A DNA stretch of 64,000 nt from Thalassospira sp. TSL5-1 (lineage in GTDB: Bacteria > Pseudomonadota > Alphaproteobacteria > Rhodospirillales > Thalassospiraceae), in NCBI RefSeq assembly GCF_001907695.1, contig NZ_KV880638.1, positions 1,116,882-1,180,881 of the forward strand, read 5' to 3'. Within the stretch, counting starts at the first letter, position 1. The number at the start of each line of letters is the position of its first letter. The notes beneath the pieces are model-generated. The model did no database searches. It was not told the DNA's origin and saw nothing but the letters and a program-made list of their open reading frames with translations. Of this stretch, positions 2,635 to 11,498 are shown piece by piece. The translations under genes and the position numbers were made by a program.

Positions 2635-3717
2635 TCACCAGTCCATAGACGTCAATTTGCTCATTGCTGACTGCGCCAGCTTTTTGCGGTTGGCGGCCCT
2701 GGTATAAATTTCCGATGTTTTTGCTTCGCTGTGGCCGTGAATGCTCATGATCTCATAGGTCGTGCAGCCTTCCTCGGCCAGCAATGTGCCGGCCGCCTTG
2801 CGGATGCCATGACTGGAAAGATGGCCAAGGCCAGCTTCCTCACACCATTTTTTGAAGCGATTCCTTAACCCCTCGGCAGACCGAAACGGTTTGCCGTATT
2901 CTGTCATCAAATAGGCCTCGTTATCGGCGTTAATAGCCCGGGTGGCTTTGTATAAAGGCGGCAGCATCGGGATTTCGACAAAGGCCGATCCCTTTTTCTT
3001 CGGCTGCCAGCCGATCCATGTTTGCCCCTGAATTTCAATTTCGTTGCCTGGCCCCAGGCGATAGGCATCGCTAATCCGGCAGGCGGTAAACATAAACAGG
3101 GTGAGGCACAAATGCGCCGGCGTACCAGGTAGGTGAACTTTCCGATATTGCTGCAGGTCAGCAACCGTCCAGGGCGTGGCCCCGGTGCTGTTCAGGCGCG
3201 GTGCCGAAACATCCCGGGCCAGGTGATGTTCGGTCAGGCCAATTTCAAATGCCCAGCGGTAAAGGGCGCGGATCGCCTTTACCATGTTGGCCGCTTTTCC
3301 CGGTGTCGCCATCATGCTGTTGCGAATACGGATCATCTGGCTTTGGGGCATGTGCAGGGTAAAGCTGCCAAACCGGTCCCCGTTCTCCGCTGTCATGGCG
3401 GTAAGCTCTTTCAGTAGGCTGCGCCGCTGCATCAATGTCAGGTTTGATGCCTGGCCGTTATCCACCATTTCCGAAAGATGCTCCAGATACCGGGCGACCA
3501 GCCAATCAAGCGATCCCTTGATCGTTCGTTCGACCGCTGTGCTTTCAGGTGGCAACTGGATGCCAGCACGCGCTGCGTGGTAGTGCTCCAGAAATTGCGG
3601 ATGATCCGGCGCGACATGGAGGCGAATTTTCTTGCGCTTGCCCTCGGCCAATACGCGATAGCGCACATTGCCAGAAGGCAGCTTTTCTTTCCAAAGGCCC
3701 GGCAGCTTTAATTTCAT
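2635..3717 (-). CDS. int: Tyrosine recombinase, phage integrase
   Basis: It catalyses site-specific insertion and excision at the tRNA attachment site. The N-terminal third is the arm/core-binding part. The catalytic domain shows the Arg of TACRISD (near residue 214 from this start), the HGIR box (near 303-306), the His of IHGHSE (near 329) and the nucleophile Tyr of TSEIYTRA (near 338). The ATG at 3717 overlaps the preceding stop as ATGA and has GAAGGA upstream, so I prefer it to the ATG at 3735. It lies next to attL, as expected. Confidence 0.95.
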   Translation of the reverse strand: MKLKLPGLWKEKLPSGNVRYRVLAEGKRKKIRLHVAPDHPQFLEHYHAARAGIQLPPESTAVERTIKGSLDWLVARYLEHLSEMVDNGQASNLTLMQRRSLLKELTAMTAENGDRFGSFTLHMPQSQMIRIRNSMMATPGKAANMVKAIRALYRWAFEIGLTEHHLARDVSAPRLNSTGATPWTVADLQQYRKVHLPGTPAHLCLTLFMFTACRISDAYRLGPGNEIEIQGQTWIGWQPKKKGSAFVEIPMLPPLYKATRAINADNEAYLMTEYGKPFRSAEGLRNRFKKWCEEAGLGHLSSHGIRKAAGTLLAEEGCTTYEIMSIHGHSEAKTSEIYTRAANRKKLAQSAMSKLTSMDW

Positions 3718-3902
3718 GGTGCTTCCTTCGGCCATTCTTTCAGGGCCGGTGCATCCTGAATGCGGATTTCTTCAATTTCACCAAACCGAACGCTCACGCT
3801 ATCGCCTGAAACAACAACTTCTGAAACCTGTAGCCCGCATTCCTTGGCCGCCTGTATCGCCCTGCGAACAGCAGCCTGGGTAACGGTTGCTTTTTTACTC
3901 AT
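3714..3902 (-). CDS. Small hypothetical protein upstream of integrase
   Basis: 62 residues, Lys-rich start (MSKKATVTQAAVRRAIQAA), then a beta-rich middle. The stop overlaps the integrase start as ATGA and its own start overlaps the previous stop, so it is translationally coupled. The position fits an excisionase or directionality factor, but no MerR-like helix-turn-helix is clear, so the function stays open. Confidence 0.7.
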   Translation of the reverse strand: MSKKATVTQAAVRRAIQAAKECGLQVSEVVVSGDSVSVRFGEIEEIRIQDAPALKEWPKEAP

Positions 3903-4087
3903 GACTGTGCTCCCTGTTTTTTAATGGCTTCCTCTATGGCGATTTCGAGTGGGGTAGGTGGCAGTGGCGTATTTCCGTTTTGCTGTTTGAAGACCGTGCT
4001 GCAAAGGGGGCATACACCGTGATCAACTTCGATCGCGCTAGGATCAGTTGCTAACGGGCAGGGGGAGAAAATCGGGCAACTTGTCAT
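3899..4087 (-). CDS. Small Cys-rich hypothetical protein
   Basis: 62 residues with CPIFSPC and CPLC pairs about 25 residues apart, a possible zinc knuckle. The ATG at 4087 is preceded by GGAG 7 nt upstream, better than the ATG at 4105. The stop overlaps the next start as ATGA. It heads the four-gene integrase module. Confidence 0.62.
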   Translation of the reverse strand: MTSCPIFSPCPLATDPSAIEVDHGVCPLCSTVFKQQNGNTPLPPTPLEIAIEEAIKKQGAQS

Positions 4088-4149
4088 CTTGTTGCTCCTT
4101 CCCATTTTTTTATGCCTTGGTTAAGCTGGAAATAAATTTGGGGGGCGAC

Positions 4150-4710
4150 ATGAAAAATACGATTTTGGCGTTGGTGATCGCTATCGGGCTTGTTTGTTTG
4201 TTTTTTGTTGGGGCGGCAGCGGGCTTTGATGCTGCACATCAAGATGCTTGGAAATTGTTCAGTGACAGTACATTTCGTATTCAGTGGGAGGTTTTGCTCA
4301 CAGGCATTGTTGCAATTGCTGGTGCGATGTGGGCCTACCGTGGGGCGACTTACGACATTCGCCATAAAACTGCGGTATCGGCAGCGGGATATTTGCAGGA
4401 TTGTTTTGAGGTACACCAGTTGCTTGAAGCTATTGATCCGGCAACGAAAATGGGGCGCGAGATTCAGCGATTGTACGAGAATGGCGATGTTAAACTGGTT
4501 AAGCGGGTGGCAAACGATGCGTTTGAGGCAATGCCAAAGCTCCCAGCAGATCTCGCTACAAAGAAGAATATCGATATGTACAGAAAAGCACGCAGTCAGG
4601 TGCTTTTGCTTTCGACTTTGGATAAGCCCCGAGAGGGGGTGTTGAAAAAGGCTCGAGGTGAAATTCAGCGATTTATTAACGTAATGGAAAATTATGCCGA
4701 TGAAGTTTGA
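4150..4710 (+). CDS. Two-helix membrane protein, QWE family (accessory gene)
   Basis: 186 residues: an N-terminal membrane helix (ILALVIAIGLVCLFFVGAAA), a short loop, IQWEVLLTG leading into a second helix, then a charged helical domain presumably in the cytoplasm. The layout and the QWE-x-L-x-x-G motif match the product of 9783-10442. It points right inside a leftward phage region, between primase and the integrase module, so it is most likely a moron expressed from its own promoter. No known function is recognised. Confidence 0.72.
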   Translation: MKNTILALVIAIGLVCLFFVGAAAGFDAAHQDAWKLFSDSTFRIQWEVLLTGIVAIAGAMWAYRGATYDIRHKTAVSAAGYLQDCFEVHQLLEAIDPATKMGREIQRLYENGDVKLVKRVANDAFEAMPKLPADLATKKNIDMYRKARSQVLLLSTLDKPREGVLKKARGEIQRFINVMENYADEV

Positions 4711-4739: not shown

Positions 4740-7403
4740 TCACTTCCCCTCCCTGTTGAATATCCAGCATTTGACGGTTTTGTTTGGAAAGGCCTTGTTG
4801 TGGCTGCGCACCGCCTTGATTTCTCGGAAGCTGCGTGAGCGGGATTGGCGCAGCAGCTTTTTTAAGTCTTGCAGAGGCGGGATTTGCTGATTGTTGTGAT
4901 GCGCGACTGACTGCATGTGGTTGAGATTAATCGCGATGGTGTTTTCAAGGTTCATCGCGTGGTTCAGCTTTTCATCGCCCAGGAAGTCATAAGCCTCCCA
5001 AAATTCCTCGATCGCCGGGTGATCGGCGGAAATGGCCCTTTGCCGGTTAACAGCGGCAAGTTTTAATTCGTCTATTGCGTCTTCGTGCCATGCCTTGGGC
5101 ATGTTGGTCAGTTCGGCCAATGCTTCGACCAGGCTGATCAGTTGGGCGTGGTTTTTGGCGATACGGTTTGACCGGATATCGGGGAAACGCATTAATTCGG
5201 TTTCCCAATGAGCGGTGCGATTAAAAACCGCGTCCAATATCTGTTTTTCCCGGGTGACAGCCTTGATCAGGAAAAAGCTGGCATTCTCCACCGGCATGGC
5301 GGCAAGTGCGTCAGCGGCGATTTTAGATGCCGGTGTGTGGCCGCTGGTATCGAAATGGGTGTGAATGATGCGCTGCATGATGGCTTCGGACGCATTTACG
5401 GCGGCGTTCTGGCTGATCACAACTGATCCGCGAAAGGGTGGTTCACTGGTTTCGTTGCCACCATTTTTCACACCACGCGCCCGGCTGGCCCGCCCGTTAT
5501 AGGCGGTTTTCAGTTCGTCCCAATCGAACTGCCTGGCCTTGGCGCTGTCTTCGCGGTCGCTTTCAATCAGGCAGATCGGCAGGTTTGAAACCTGTGAAAA
5601 AATACGTGCCCGGGCGGCAAGGGTGGATTTGTTGGGGTCAAAACCTTCGTAGTCAGACCGCCCGACCAGCTTCCATAAAAATTCGATCAGGGTGGATTTA
5701 CCCGCCCCGGCTTCGCCCACAATTTCAAGGAACGGATAGGATTTTTGCTTTCCTCTGATCTGTTCGGCAAAGAGGCTGCCAAGAAAGAACGCGGTCGCGA
5801 TCAAGCCTTTTGCGCCATAGGCCGAATAGACCATGCCGAGCCATTTATCGTCATAGTCGGTCGCATTGCCTATGTGGAGTTGCAGCGACTGGTTAAGGGA
5901 CTTGATCGAGGTTTTGCCGACTTCAAAAAAGTCTTCGTCGTTGATTTCGATAACCTTGCCGGCCGCAACGGCCCGGTCATTGAAAACATAGATGCCGTGT
6001 TCCTTGGCATAACCAATGAAATCAGTCGTTTCGACGATCTTGATGTTGTCCAGGTAGTGTTTCACCAGCCAGTTAAGCTGCTGCGAATTGCCAGCATAAA
6101 GCGCACCCGGCGCGATCGAGAGAAGTCGCTTTTTAAATTCGCTGGCCGTTGCGACCTGGCCCCCGGAAAAAGTGTTTTTGATCGTATGCCGACCATGCGG
6201 AAATTCCACCCGGGTATAATACCAGCTATCGTCGGTTTGCTTGTCCTGTTGAAAATACAGGAATTTGAAGGTGCAGTTTGCAATCTCTTCCAGGCGTGAT
6301 GCCTTGCGCACGGCTTCCGGTTCGGCTTCCTCGCGGCTCATGCCACGCTCTGCCGCCGATGTCATCTGTGCGTTGTAAACTTCGGCAATGACCGAAAACC
6401 AGTAGGTTCGGGTGTCGAACTCAACCGCGAAACTGCGGCTTTTGTGTCGTTCCCAGACCAGCAGGGCTTTTTCCATTGGGCTTTTGGCAAGGAACAAATC
6501 GCCATGAAACCGGTAGCGTTCAATGTCCCGGTCATTCAGGGCATTGGCAAGATGGGCGTCGTTCCAGTCTGTTTTTTTGCGATCCGCTTGCGGGATCAGC
6601 GCGGCCTTGTTGGTGAAGGTCAGATAGTTCTTATCGACATGAGCAATACATTTGCGAATGTGCCGTTTGCCCGCCGGGTCGTTATCCATCGCCCACACCA
6701 AGGTGAGCGATTTGCCCTTCAGCTTTTCCAGTTCCTTGTCGGGCACATTATAGGCCGACAGGATAGCGGCGGCCTTTTTGCCATGAACGGCAAGGGTGGC
6801 CGCATCGATGCAGCCCTCGACAATCCAAAGCTCGTCGCCATCCTCGATGGTTTGCCCGGGCGGCACCCACCACCGGCCCTTATACGGGGTGCTGCCAAAA
6901 TTGGCGCGGCGGTCATCGACCTTTTTGGTTTTCGGGTCGGTAATACGGACGGTTTCAATCAACCGTTCCATGAAAATGTTTTCGCCGCGGCTGATGTCGA
7001 AAACCACGGTCGCGGTCTTGCGGTCGCCCCATGCGTGGTAAAATTCGCCCTGCCGATACCAGCCCTTTGTTTTGGCCGGGTTAAGCCCGCGCACAAAATC
7101 CATATAGCGGTCGGCGGTACGGTTTGGGTCTTCGGTGGTCGCCGGATAGCGTTCGTTGAATTTGCCAAACGCATCAGGATACAGGTCTTTGACATGGGCG
7201 GTGTGGCCGCATTTGTTTTCACGGCCACATTTAATCACCCACGGGCTGGATATTTTGACAAACATTTCACGCCGGTTACAGGCAGGGCAGCGCCCTTGCC
7301 GCAACCAGTCATGAACCTGTTTGAAGCCGTAATCACTTTTTAGGCGTGAAATGACTTCTTGCCTTACGTCGTCGGTCATTTCACGCATGTTGATCGCGCT
7401 CAT
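4740..7403 (-). CDS. Phage DNA primase-helicase (zinc finger, TOPRIM, P-loop)
   Basis: An 887-residue replication protein. Residues about 35-65 form a CHC2-like zinc finger (CPAC...C). A TOPRIM fold follows with WIVEGCIDAATLAVHG and the acidic WAMDNDPAGK. The C-terminal half is an ATPase with Walker A GEAGAGKST and the acidic LIESDREDS. This is the layout of primase-helicases that replicate P4-like or alphaproteobacterial P2-like phages without a P2-type nicking protein A. It overlaps the preceding small gene by 23 bp, and no start codon here has a good ribosome site. It is the largest gene of the early operon. Confidence 0.88.
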   Translation of the reverse strand: MSAINMREMTDDVRQEVISRLKSDYGFKQVHDWLRQGRCPACNRREMFVKISSPWVIKCGRENKCGHTAHVKDLYPDAFGKFNERYPATTEDPNRTADRYMDFVRGLNPAKTKGWYRQGEFYHAWGDRKTATVVFDISRGENIFMERLIETVRITDPKTKKVDDRRANFGSTPYKGRWWVPPGQTIEDGDELWIVEGCIDAATLAVHGKKAAAILSAYNVPDKELEKLKGKSLTLVWAMDNDPAGKRHIRKCIAHVDKNYLTFTNKAALIPQADRKKTDWNDAHLANALNDRDIERYRFHGDLFLAKSPMEKALLVWERHKSRSFAVEFDTRTYWFSVIAEVYNAQMTSAAERGMSREEAEPEAVRKASRLEEIANCTFKFLYFQQDKQTDDSWYYTRVEFPHGRHTIKNTFSGGQVATASEFKKRLLSIAPGALYAGNSQQLNWLVKHYLDNIKIVETTDFIGYAKEHGIYVFNDRAVAAGKVIEINDEDFFEVGKTSIKSLNQSLQLHIGNATDYDDKWLGMVYSAYGAKGLIATAFFLGSLFAEQIRGKQKSYPFLEIVGEAGAGKSTLIEFLWKLVGRSDYEGFDPNKSTLAARARIFSQVSNLPICLIESDREDSAKARQFDWDELKTAYNGRASRARGVKNGGNETSEPPFRGSVVISQNAAVNASEAIMQRIIHTHFDTSGHTPASKIAADALAAMPVENASFFLIKAVTREKQILDAVFNRTAHWETELMRFPDIRSNRIAKNHAQLISLVEALAELTNMPKAWHEDAIDELKLAAVNRQRAISADHPAIEEFWEAYDFLGDEKLNHAMNLENTIAINLNHMQSVAHHNNQQIPPLQDLKKLLRQSRSRSFREIKAVRSHNKAFPNKTVKCWIFNREGK

Positions 7404-8230: not shown

Positions 8231-8500
8231 TCATTTGCCCCCGTTGATTTGCGGCCAGTCGTTGGGGTGGCGCTGGTTTGTATCAACAGGGCCGTCAAGA
8301 TCGGCGATGGTATTTTCAAGCGGGGGAGTGACCATAAGGCAGGCGGTGCAGGCCATGCGGGCAATGCCGGTGGCCTGTTCTTTGTGCCCAGCTTCAAGCA
8401 ACAGCGCGATGCCCTCAAAGCTGTCATAGAACTGATTGAGCAGCATCGCTGCTTGCTCAACCGTTTCAAGCTGGTCAAAGGAGATAGATTTGTCGGTCAT
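8231..8500 (-). CDS. Hypothetical early protein, second gene of the operon
   Basis: 89 residues starting MTDKSISFDQLETVEQAAM; helical, with two Cys in a hydrophobic patch (ARMACTACLMV). GAGGG sits 8 nt before the ATG. That ribosome site lies inside the end of the open frame 8502-8768, whose TGA is one base from this ATG, so the two may be translationally coupled. Confidence 0.72.
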   Translation of the reverse strand: MTDKSISFDQLETVEQAAMLLNQFYDSFEGIALLLEAGHKEQATGIARMACTACLMVTPPLENTIADLDGPVDTNQRHPNDWPQINGGK

Positions 8501-8501
8501 A

Positions 8502-8768
8502 TCAAAAGCCCTCAGGATAGCGTTTCACAACACCACCATTGCGGCTTTCTACGACCGCGCTGGTGGCGGGAGGGTAGAAACCTGTCCTGAGGCAGGCGGG
8601 TTTATTCCCCTTTCGGGTCTTGTATTCACCGCCCTCCCGCCATAAGCGAGAATGTGCACCGGGACTCCGGGCACAAAAATAGCCGTAACTTACGTGACGG
8701 CTGGCCGTCAGGAACAGAGGGTTTCTACTCCCCCACGGCGGATTTATCCCGCCGATAGGATGAACCAT
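8502..8768 (-). CDS. Possible Ash/Icd-like small protein in the 293-bp element
   Basis: An 88-residue open frame (MVHPIGGINPPWGSRNPLF... to KRYPEGF) on the minus strand of the first repeat. It ends one base before the next early gene. The second repeat keeps the same frame: GYFCAR, WREGG, YKTRKGNK and YPPAT are shared, and two 3-base indels keep it open. From memory this kind of sequence is annotated in other phages as Ash or Icd-like protein; I cannot verify that here. It could instead be a by-product of a conserved leader RNA. Confidence 0.4.
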   Translation of the reverse strand: MVHPIGGINPPWGSRNPLFLTASRHVSYGYFCARSPGAHSRLWREGGEYKTRKGNKPACLRTGFYPPATSAVVESRNGGVVKRYPEGF

Positions 8769-8842
8769 ACGCCCGGTGTTTTCCGTCGTCAACCTATCCA
8801 GGTATCCCCATTGTGGATAGGTTGTGGCCGTTTTTCTTGACT
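8550..8842 (-). repeat. 293-bp structured direct repeat, copy 1
   Basis: A copy of the same length lies at 9435-9727, exactly 885 bp away in the same orientation. Several hairpins can be drawn: a long arm joining GGCGGGAGGG with the matching CCCTCCCGCC, CCGG-GACT-CCGG, AGCCG...CGGCT, and a 10-bp stem AACCTATCCA / TGGATAGGTT near the right end. It lies directly upstream of the leftward early operon, so it is best read as its leader (inference), and also upstream of the rightward gene at 8901. Confidence 0.85.
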
Positions 8843-8900
8843 CATCCTGTGCGGGCAAAAAGATTGGATTGGACAGGTTTTTTCTAGGGGAATTTGGGAT

Positions 8901-9419
8901 ATGTCTGATGGTTACAAGGCGTTGATCCGGGAAGCACAGGCTAAGGGGAAGCCTGCTTTGCTCTCGTTCGACGCCGTGCCTAGCGAAATTGAGGGTGTCG
9001 CTTTCGGGATCGACTATGTTGATAGTACGGGCCAAAAGTCCCGTCGTTGGGTAACAGCAAGAGGATTTAAGGAAGGTCTGTTGTGGGCGTATTGCTGGGT
9101 GCGAAGGGATATGCGCAGTTTTAGCCTCCATCGAATAGAGGCGATAATTGATGATGCTGGCGAAGTGCGTGATCCAGCGTCTGTTTTTCCGGAGATAATT
9201 GCTCCCAGGAGGACAATAAATGTCCAGACCACACCTAAACGGAAGCGTGACGTTGATCGGGGAGCATTTAATGCCCGCATTGCCGAACGAAATGCCGAGG
9301 TTGCAAGTGAACGCACTGAAGCTAAACACCGCAAAGAACCCGATCAAAGAACCCTTCTCATTGGTCGGGTTCTTTTGGCGGCTATATTTATGATTATTAT
9401 TTTGTTTGTTCTGCTGTGA
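8901..9419 (+). CDS. WYL-like domain protein with C-terminal membrane anchor
   Basis: 172 residues. Residues about 20-95 read like a WYL domain: a paired beta pattern (GIDYVDSTGQKSRRWVTARG), then LLWAYCWVRRDMRSFSLHRI, matching the usual C-x-x-R...R-x-F-x-x-x-R-I signature. A charged linker follows, and residues about 150-172 form one hydrophobic helix ending the protein (LLAAIFMIIILFVLL), so it is probably tail-anchored. WYL domains sense nucleic acid or nucleotide ligands in phage-defence regulators. It lies between the two repeats and reads right, against the early operon. Confidence 0.68.
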   Translation: MSDGYKALIREAQAKGKPALLSFDAVPSEIEGVAFGIDYVDSTGQKSRRWVTARGFKEGLLWAYCWVRRDMRSFSLHRIEAIIDDAGEVRDPASVFPEIIAPRRTINVQTTPKRKRDVDRGAFNARIAERNAEVASERTEAKHRKEPDQRTLLIGRVLLAAIFMIIILFVLL

Positions 9420-9434
9420 GTTTTTGCTGCTGCT

Positions 9435-9727
9435 TACGACCGCGTTGGTGGCGGGAGGGTAAGAACCTGTCAAGAGGCAGGTGGATTTATTTCCCTTTCG
9501 GGTCTTGTATCCACCGCCCTCCCGCCATATGCGAGATGCACCCGGATTCCGGGCACAAAAATAGCCGCGAGTAACGTGACGGCTAACCACCGTCTTGAAC
9601 AGAGGATTCATACTCTCCCGCGGCGGATTTATCCCACCGATAGGATGAACGATACGCCCGGTGTTTTTCGTCGTTAACCTATTCAGGTATCCCCATTTCG
9701 GATAGTTTGTTGCCGTTTTTCTTGACT
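9435..9727 (-). repeat. 293-bp structured direct repeat, copy 2
   Basis: It fills most of the gene-free stretch 9420-9782. The hairpin stems CCCGG-ATT-CCGGG and AGCCG...CGGCT are kept while loops differ; the AACCTATTC/GGATAGTTT stem is partly degraded. Both copies end in CGTTTTTCTTGACT. The minus-strand frame stays open but has ATC where copy 1 has its first ATG, so this copy may be a decayed duplicate. Confidence 0.85.
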
Positions 9728-9782
9728 TGGACACGCCAAGAAATGAGCCTTTTCGCGGGGTTACGTCTTGGGAGATTGAGCT

Positions 9783-10442
9783 TTGAAACTGATATTGAGC
9801 TACGGCTGGCCGTTGATCCTGGCATTGATCGTGGCGTTGGGACTCGTCATTACCGGCGTGTATGGCGGTGAGTGGGTTGCTGGCTGCACGAGTGCCACTT
9901 GTAACGCGGTTCGTTCCCTTCAATGGGAAACGCTTACTGCCGGGTTTTTGGGGCTGGCCGGTGGTGTCGCTGTCATTGTGATGACCCGGTACCAGCTTCA
10001 TGAAAGTCGAGAAGCTGAGGCTAAAGTGGAGTTGGCGGACGTGGATGCTCTTATTCTGGCTTACGAACATTGCCGGAAAACTGTTGTCGATACAGCTTTT
10101 TGGGCGATTGGTTACGTTAAGGCCGATGACCCGGTTACGGCTGGGATTGCTAATAAACAAATTGAGAACGCAGTGAGCACGGATAGGCCGGAAAAGCTGT
10201 TTAATGCTGTTCAGGCCCAATACCGGTTGCCAATTTGGTTGCGCGGAGCCGCCTGGCAAGTTGAACAAGCAATAGACATTTGCGGTCATGGCAGATTTGG
10301 TGTTCTGCCAGAGAATACGCATTATACGAATGTGGAGAGTACTCGGCAGTTTCTTCAATATAGTTGCCAAGAGCTGGAAAAGGCCGTTGAGAACCTGAAG
10401 GGTCAGCGAGAACGATTTGCCGAGATTTTGTTGAAGCGGTAG
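9783..10442 (+). CDS. Two-helix membrane protein, QWE family (accessory gene)
   Basis: 219 residues starting at a TTG with GGAG 8 nt upstream. An N-terminal helix (WPLILALIVALGLVITGVYG), a loop with two Cys, LQWETLTAGFLGLAGGV entering a second helix, then a long charged alpha-helical cytoplasmic part. It shares its layout and the QWE motif with 4150-4710. It stands downstream of repeat copy 2. Candidate roles are superinfection exclusion or another membrane-based defence; this is inference only. Confidence 0.72.
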   Translation: MKLILSYGWPLILALIVALGLVITGVYGGEWVAGCTSATCNAVRSLQWETLTAGFLGLAGGVAVIVMTRYQLHESREAEAKVELADVDALILAYEHCRKTVVDTAFWAIGYVKADDPVTAGIANKQIENAVSTDRPEKLFNAVQAQYRLPIWLRGAAWQVEQAIDICGHGRFGVLPENTHYTNVESTRQFLQYSCQELEKAVENLKGQRERFAEILLKR

Positions 10443-11102: not shown

Positions 11103-11498
11103 ATGGAACGCAACTATACGGCGTTCATCTTTAAGGATGAAGGTGGGTACACCGTGTCCTTCCCGGATTTGCCAGGATGCATTTCCGTCGCTTCCACTCT
11201 TGATGGAGCGTACAGTAAAGCTCGTGACGTGCTCCCCGCTTATCTGGATGTGATGCGCGCTGAAAACATGAACATTCCTGAGCCTACGCCATATGAAAAT
11301 GTGGTTTTGAGCGAGGAAAATTCCGAAAATTTTGTAGCCAAGGTTCTGGCACCGGCAAAAATGCCAGGGCAAATGGTTCGTACAAACATCACGATCGATT
11401 CTTATCTTTTGGAGGCGATCGATCGCATTAGCACAAACCGTTCTGCGTTTTTCAACGAGTTGGCAGAGCAGGAAGTTAAGCGGCGAACCGCAGTTTAA
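11103..11498 (+). CDS. hicB: HicB-like antitoxin with ribbon-helix-helix domain
   Basis: 131 residues. The N-terminal part has the partial RNase-H fold of HicB (YTAFIFKDEGGYTVSFPDLPG, then a helix with DGAYSKARD), which blocks HicA. Residues about 92-128 form a ribbon-helix-helix DNA-binding unit (RTNITIDSYLLEAIDRI...NRSAFFNELA), which likely binds the palindromes at 10507-10562. The 10887-11102 gap before it has no convincing gene. A terminator follows at 11621. Confidence 0.85.
   Translation: MERNYTAFIFKDEGGYTVSFPDLPGCISVASTLDGAYSKARDVLPAYLDVMRAENMNIPEPTPYENVVLSEENSENFVAKVLAPAKMPGQMVRTNITIDSYLLEAIDRISTNRSAFFNELAEQEVKRRTAV

Follow-up and report, generated by a model that had tools for sequence, protein, structure and literature searches.

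Organization of the locus

The window analysed here, a stretch of 64,000 nucleotides from Thalassospira sp. TSL5-1, contains a prophage with a phage integrase gene (2635–3735), a primase operon that runs on the minus strand from 8500 down to 4740, and P2-like tail genes (GPD, GpU, tape measure, tube and sheath). Two repeats, copy 1 (8550–8842) and copy 2 (9435–9727), are found in this prophage. The preliminary description of two equal repeats of 293 bp, 885 bp apart and differing by two 3-nt indels, was confirmed by re-measurement, with identity at 256 of 290 aligned positions (88.3%). The hairpins noted in both copies also proved real, since the folding z-scores of the two leaders and the two sRNAs against shuffles were −2.80, −2.97, −2.46 and −5.83. 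In contrast, copy 1 does not stop one base short of the first early gene, as had been thought: the ATG of this gene (minus strand, 8500) lies about 50 nt past position 8550. The features of the locus are listed in Table 1.

Table 1. Features of the two repeat copies and of the adjacent genes (positions in the window)
Feature	Position	Strand	Remarks
DNA primase, 887 aa, downstream operon	4740..7403	-	PHROG 1139, E=2.4e-296; Toprim_2
First early-operon gene, 89 aa, function unknown	8231..8500	-	ORF; predicted direct target of copy 1 RNA
Copy 1 second target b2 (UCCUGAGG)	8510..8517	-	8-nt perfect complement of b' CCUCAGGA; precedes ATG at 8500
Copy 1 second target a2 (GUAGAAA)	8546..8552	-	7-nt complement of sRNA linker, 4 nt past sRNA end
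Copy 1 sRNA-Xcc1 (RF02221)	8557..8641	-	71.8 bits, gathering 53
Copy 1 terminator-like hairpin (8681–8702) and U-tract	8675..8702	-	−9.9 kcal/mol
Copy 1 leader target b1 (UUCCUGA)	8708..8714	-	complement of sRNA loop b'
Copy 1 leader target a1 (GUAGAAACC)	8720..8728	-	complement of sRNA linker GGUUUCUAC; covaries in alignment A2
Copy 1 promoter-like site TTGACG-17-TATGGT	8764..8792	-	hexamers common to L001 and L003–L006
WYL-like gene, 172 aa, lying between copy 1 and copy 2 and divergent from the former	8901..9419	+	PHROG 6785, E=1.9e-10
Copy 2 sRNA-Xcc1 (RF02221)	9442..9526	-	66.4 bits; fold z=−5.83
Copy 2 terminator-like hairpin and U-tract	9557..9585	-	−8.1 kcal/mol
Copy 2 leader target b1 (UUCAAGA)	9593..9599	-	complement of copy 2 loop UCUUGA; G025 letters identical
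Copy 2 leader target a1	9604..9613	-	imperfect complement of copy 2 linker
Copy 2 promoter-like site TTAACG-17-TATCGT	9649..9677	-	from alignment with copy 1; G025 equivalent TTAACC-17-TATGGT

The first early gene could not be assigned to any credible family (best PHROG match E=0.4; YTH at 14.5 bits, under the cut-off of that family) and is not a recognised antirepressor. The gene between the copies is referred to as WYL-like, as it scored 17.0 bits with Pfam WYL, below the gathering cut-off of 21.8; its product has a hydrophobic stretch at the C-terminal end (by eye). Two predicted plus-strand proteins of 219–220 aa with hydrophobic N-terminal segments (by eye) are encoded within the same prophage (4048–4710 and 9783–10442); at a guess, these might be exclusion genes.

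Assignment to the sRNA-Xcc1 family

Both copies exceed the gathering score of RF02221 across the entire 87-position model, and they are the only matches in the whole genome at E<=0.1. Matches at E<=0.001 were detected in 11 of 100 relatives, 47 of 385 genomes of the class and 58 of 398 genomes of the phylum, while scores exceeding the RF02221 cut-off were reached in 7, 8 and 40 genomes, respectively (the three sets share a few genomes). The idea that the element is a new alphaproteobacterial version is therefore not supported.

The suggested membership of the C4 family was not borne out either. A search of positions 8400–9900, i.e. of both copies, with the C4 covariance model (RF01695) gave no match at E<=5, while a comparable search on P4 recovered C4 at 74.9 bits. 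The leader part of copy 1 scored 21.4 bits with isrK (RF01394), far from the gathering score of 50, and c4-a1b1 (RF03163) had no match at E<=5 here. Conversely, a search of P4 8000–9100 with RF02221 gave nothing at E<=5.

Three of the genomes carry many sRNA-Xcc1 matches (11 in G192, 10 in G387 and 9 in G736), two of them being merely 1.4–1.6 Mb in size. One sRNA-Xcc1 element, in genome G836, is preceded on its strand by a CRISPR-DR4 repeat array (L085:3420-5401) that ends about 300 nt upstream, and in G008 a Proteo-phage-1 RNA (L079:4559-4642) occurs in the same stretch as such an element.

Pairing with the leader target

Complementarity between the sRNA (linker a' and loop b') and the upstream leader, which characterizes C4-type RNAs, was found in both window copies and, on average, across loci of the family. 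The comparison was based on the 74 of 75 loci with at least 200 nt upstream, 58 of which were kept after dropping sRNAs at least 85% alike. The b'/a' part of the sRNA bound its own leader with a mean of −28.1 kcal/mol, versus −20.9 for the leaders of other loci (0 of 100,000 permutations), and the longest Watson-Crick run was 8.67 versus 5.81. For 23 of the 58 loci the own leader ranked first; for 35 it was one of the three best, and for 13 it fell below fifth place. The same was observed for viral elements (at least 120 loci in the scan; 119 usable elements, 43 of them non-redundant and 36 with an ORF no more than 150 nt away): among the matches listed, the 43 non-redundant elements gave −25.3 for the own and −18.6 for other leaders (0 of 20,000), the own leader coming first in 12 cases and no lower than third in 18.

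In alignment A2, composed of 40 of the 75 loci picked by eye for a clear module, 81.3% of the cells of nine leader-sRNA pairs were paired, versus 56.9±1.8 after shuffling (0 of 500), covariation was 0.615 versus 0.221 (0 of 500), and shifting the register reduced pairing to 29–59%. Two of five measures were not extreme, namely both-side changes (9 versus 7.8; 64 of 500) and further pair types (28 versus 25.1; 34 of 500). The A2 test is partly circular, because the loci were selected by eye and the nine pairs after a scan of the columns; the tests of the 58 loci, of the 43 viral elements and of the second target are independent of this choice. In both window copies the b' loop matches its leader with a bulge (by eye).

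Second target ahead of the next gene

An earlier test of the sRNA against 160–220 nt of downstream sequence looked null, and it was the separate testing of the shorter b' and a' segments that revealed a second target. Downstream runs of at least 7 nt complementary to b' were present in 23 of the 58 loci (4.4 expected) and, among the matches listed, in 29 of 39 viral elements drawn from the 43 non-redundant ones (4.2 expected), with 0 of 20,000 permutations in each case; a control stretch 400 nt further downstream showed no excess of b' matching. The b' site was followed within about 20 nt by an ATG in 20 of the 23 loci, compared with 0.33 of all such windows, and in 27 of the 29 viral elements among the matches listed, compared with 0.31. 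For a', tested against the same 130 nt downstream, native combinations surpassed swapped ones in both locus sets (0 of 20,000 each).

The b2 site of copy 1 overlaps the Shine-Dalgarno-like sequence (assigned by eye) of the first gene ahead of the primase. Complementarity of b' to the ribosome-binding region downstream, also typical of C4, is a property of copy 1 and not of copy 2, downstream of which no b2 was found. The b1/b'/b2 letters of the Thalassospira elements are UCCUGA / CCUCAGGA / UCCUGAGG in copy 1, UCCAGA / CCUCUGGA / UCCAGAGG in G013, UCGAGA / CCUCUCGA / UCGAGAGG in G026, CACAGA / CCUCUGUGA / UCACAGAGG in G008, and UCAAGA / CCUCUUGA with no b2 in copy 2. In four of the five elements, therefore, the leader, b' and b2 positions change together.

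Putative promoter, terminator and processing signals

Of the 40 loci in A2, 20 have the motif TTGAC 36–62 nt ahead of the target (other letter orders: mean 1.6, maximum 14). At loci L001 and L003–L006 the spacer sequence of the promoter-like site varies, and L006 has TTGACT. A promoter scan by itself gave a result near chance (2 found versus 1.1 expected).

Terminator-like hairpins were detected in 17 of 58 leaders, as against a mean of 2.8 and a maximum of 6 in 20 shuffles; a hairpin loop CCG(A/U)(C/A)AG recurs in many of the 40 loci (A2 columns 90–100, by eye). When the target was forced to be unpaired, the terminator probability rose from 0.64 to 0.93 (29 of the 40 aligned leaders). An antiterminator switch operated by target pairing was considered and rejected: we do not claim it, because leaders with shuffled targets equalled the native ones (0.69 versus 0.64, p=0.52; 29 leaders).

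The sRNA of copy 1 is preceded by U at −1, begins with G at +1 and has ACCA immediately 3' of the closing stem. These marks resemble those of RNase P substrates and are common in the family: of 75 loci, 50 have U at −1, 67 have G at +1 and 46 have RCC following the closing stem (RCC in 32 of the 58 non-redundant ones).

Genes downstream of the element

The gene following the element was identified in 41 viral and named-phage elements. Among the matches listed, its families included Bro-N (11), KilA-N (10), P22_AR_N (6), pRha (4) and AntA (3), where one protein may count twice, and the anti-repressor PHROG 245 matched the next gene in 24 of the 41. Records of six of the nine phage matches were viewed (H1, H2, H3, H5, H7 and H8, of which H3 is without annotation), and in four of the five annotated ones ant, KilA-N or antirepressor genes come next. 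Rac-SA53 and Aaphi23 have ant immediately after the element; in Acinetobacter phage 4316 this place is taken by a KilA-N gene, in Bordetella phage vB_BaM-IFTN1 by an antirepressor gene and in Moraxella phage Mcat15 by a hypothetical gene. Of the plasmid matches, two of six were viewed (H10 and H11). The closest parallel to the window is plasmid p2 of Azospirillum sp. TSH100, in which the element is followed by hypothetical, Bro-N and toprim genes; hypothetical genes follow it in A. thermophilum.

The cellular genomes presented a more mixed picture than the viral set. The first downstream ORFs of 66 of the 75 loci were collected (set A1; L001, L002, L004, L007, L009, L013, L016, L018 and L072 were omitted by eye and, as no strict rule was applied, some ORFs starting far from the RNA were retained, i.e. 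those of L030, L042 and L045). They included Bro-N (6), pRha (5), KilA-N (3), HTH_3 (3), SymE (2) and P22_AR_N (1), the rest comprising other families found once or twice and many genes without a family. At L048 and L067, in two genomes, sRNA-Xcc1 lies directly ahead of SymE and its b' is complementary to the region before the start codon. At L042 and L030, which are weak RF02221 matches, the nearest long downstream ORFs, 214 and 525 nt further on and assigned to these loci by eye, resemble IMPDH and photolyase; the matches are possibly due to chance or to a different use of the fold.

Proposed function of the two copies

Taken together, these data make it likely that each copy is an antisense immunity module like C4 and the P4 CI RNA, built from a different RNA family, and that copy 1 controls the replication operon. 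The family assignment, the leader pairing, the second target and the antirepressor context all fit the original suggestion that the early (replication) leader harbours an antisense RNA conferring immunity. By analogy with C4, we infer that the module is transcribed, cut by RNase P and active in trans, and that it represses its target and confers immunity. A sigma-70-like promoter would start a minus-strand leader with the target a1/b1, the terminator-like hairpin and the three-stem sRNA-Xcc1 of about 85 nt, which RNase P would probably release by cutting where the closing stem begins on its 5' side. The linker a' and the loop b' of the second hairpin may then act in trans, pairing with a1/b1 and, for copy 1, additionally with a2/b2. 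The latter pairing, with b2 covering the ribosome-binding region, would keep the first early gene from being translated; in a lysogen the early (replication) operon would be held silent in the resident and likewise in any superinfecting phage that shares its specificity. Of the two halves of this scheme, the translation block is better supported than a leader pairing that promotes termination. Copy 2 would be a second module of other specificity, separately acquired and missing its downstream target.

Origin of copy 2 and alternative explanations

The pairing partners of the sRNA all lie on one transcript, and complementarity alone cannot tell cis from trans; the element might thus be a cis-only riboregulator whose sRNA segment pairs back onto the leader and the ribosome-binding region of the same transcript, with no RNA set free. 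We regard this as unlikely, given the RNase P-like marks that flank the sRNA, the free RNA of about 88 nt with RACE-mapped ends that the accessible text of PMC2996969 reports for Xanthomonas, and the release of the P1/P7 C4 RNA by RNase P (stated in the available part of PMC5320573 and, likewise, in the title of a reference cited in PMC4919922). Another alternative, proposed initially, is that one immunity element was duplicated in tandem and trapped the WYL gene; the similarity of the copies and the location of the WYL-like gene between them speak for it. In a same-genus relative (G023), however, a single copy 1 adjoins the WYL-like gene, and the site occupied by copy 2 in the window holds a different gene, a 246-aa ORF, which argues against such an event. 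Moreover, in another Thalassospira (G025) a truncated element adjoining hicAB carries the b1 letters of copy 2 and is flanked by DNA 76% identical to the HicB-like antitoxin gene of the window (11103–11498), which is separated from copy 2 by a 219-aa ORF. The copies also differ in specificity: copy 1 RNA bound its own leader at −29.6 and that of copy 2 at −20.5, and copy 2 RNA its own at −23.1 and that of copy 1 at −16.7. Among five Thalassospira elements, all five RNAs bound their own leader best and four of the five leaders were bound best by their own RNA; the G013 RNA (−23.2) binds the copy 2 leader as well as the latter's own RNA does, hence the isolation of specificities is incomplete. 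Duplication is, in our opinion, quite improbable. We read copy 2, which resembles the remnant beside hicAB in G025, as a heteroimmune module that was probably brought in with the HicB-side block; this reading is based on single genomes.

The function of the repeats might instead reside in a small Ash/Icd-like protein, with the hairpins being incidental. One minus-strand frame is indeed open in both copies, as noted from the outset, with 77 of 102 residues identical (75%), and it is also open at L003–L005, but it is broken at L006 and in G025. No coding signature accompanies it: the differences between the copies are spread evenly over the codon positions (10, 12 and 12), and after 34 random substitutions the frame of copy 1 was still open in 535 of 2000 trials. 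In the family as a whole, no frame was preferred (14, 10 and 11 open; 36 of 58 loci scorable). A Pfam search gave no family at E<=5 for the frame of either copy, so that the suspected kinship with Ash was not upheld, tblastn against phages gave no match, and there was no similarity to the P4 cI ORF. The residue identity is explained by conservation of the RNA, and a protein-coding role is highly improbable. The antisense module remains our preferred interpretation.

Comparison with known systems

RF02221 and C4 are both known families. What is new is the evidence, drawn from sequence comparison, that RF02221 resembles C4 in its behaviour, having two targets and an association with antirepressors; our literature search found no paper joining Xcc1 with an antirepressor, and an earlier description is possible. 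In Xanthomonas, sRNA-Xcc1 has been described as a trans-acting, virulence-linked and integron-borne RNA (PMC2996969, PMC12444791), and the accessible portions of these accounts mention neither a target in a leader or ribosome-binding region nor a connection with antirepressors. The sRNA-Xcc1–symE integron cassettes of Xanthomonas have the same type of RNA before SymE as L048 and L067, with a toxin downstream and not a replication operon, and no pairing is proposed for them in the available sections of PMC12444791. The pairing observed at L048 and L067 predicts that the RNA is the antitoxin of the SymE cassettes at these two loci. A role as an antisense silencer of the early or toxic gene that follows would provide a concrete, testable function for a widespread RNA family reported in virulence and as vesicle cargo.

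IsrK of Gifsy-1 and seqA of P4 share with the leader part of copy 1 the order of hairpins and the U-tract, the match being weak; unlike the repression proposed here, IsrK activates its operon, according to the accessible text of PMC4825925. The table available from PMC12189769 places C4, isrK and sRNA-Xcc1 side by side on one strand in Xylella fastidiosa De Donno; C4-type and sRNA-Xcc1 RNAs can therefore share a locus.

A broader interpretation, offered tentatively as a possibility, is that the whole sRNA-Xcc1 family constitutes a mobile, reprogrammable two-target antisense module that silences antirepressors, phage replication operons and SymE toxins in diverse Pseudomonadota, and that copy 2 is a captured immunity RNA used for defence. 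If so, a foreign module without a downstream target of its own, kept in a prophage, would make the lysogen immune to a different phage. As specificity can be read from about 8 nt, it may be possible to predict heteroimmunity groups from sequence.

The C4 RNA of P1 controls an antirepressor. In P4, isrK/c4-a1b1 and then C4 are located upstream of the primase, in an order paralleled by the window. Two features set sRNA-Xcc1 apart from C4: (i) C4 is included in Rfam clan CL00128 and RF02221 in no clan, and (ii) stem 2 of sRNA-Xcc1 carries a conserved AAUACAA...GGGGAAUA motif. The proposed module nevertheless shares with C4 of P1/P7 and the P4 CI RNA (i) a leader target upstream, (ii) a three-stem RNA with a'/b' loops, (iii) a covered ribosome-binding site, (iv) an antirepressor gene or replication operon downstream and (v) an RNase P-like 5' end (for C4, as far as the available part of PMC5320573 describes it). 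C4-type phage immunity would thus extend to a separate RNA family, in the alphaproteobacteria as well as in other parts of the phylum.
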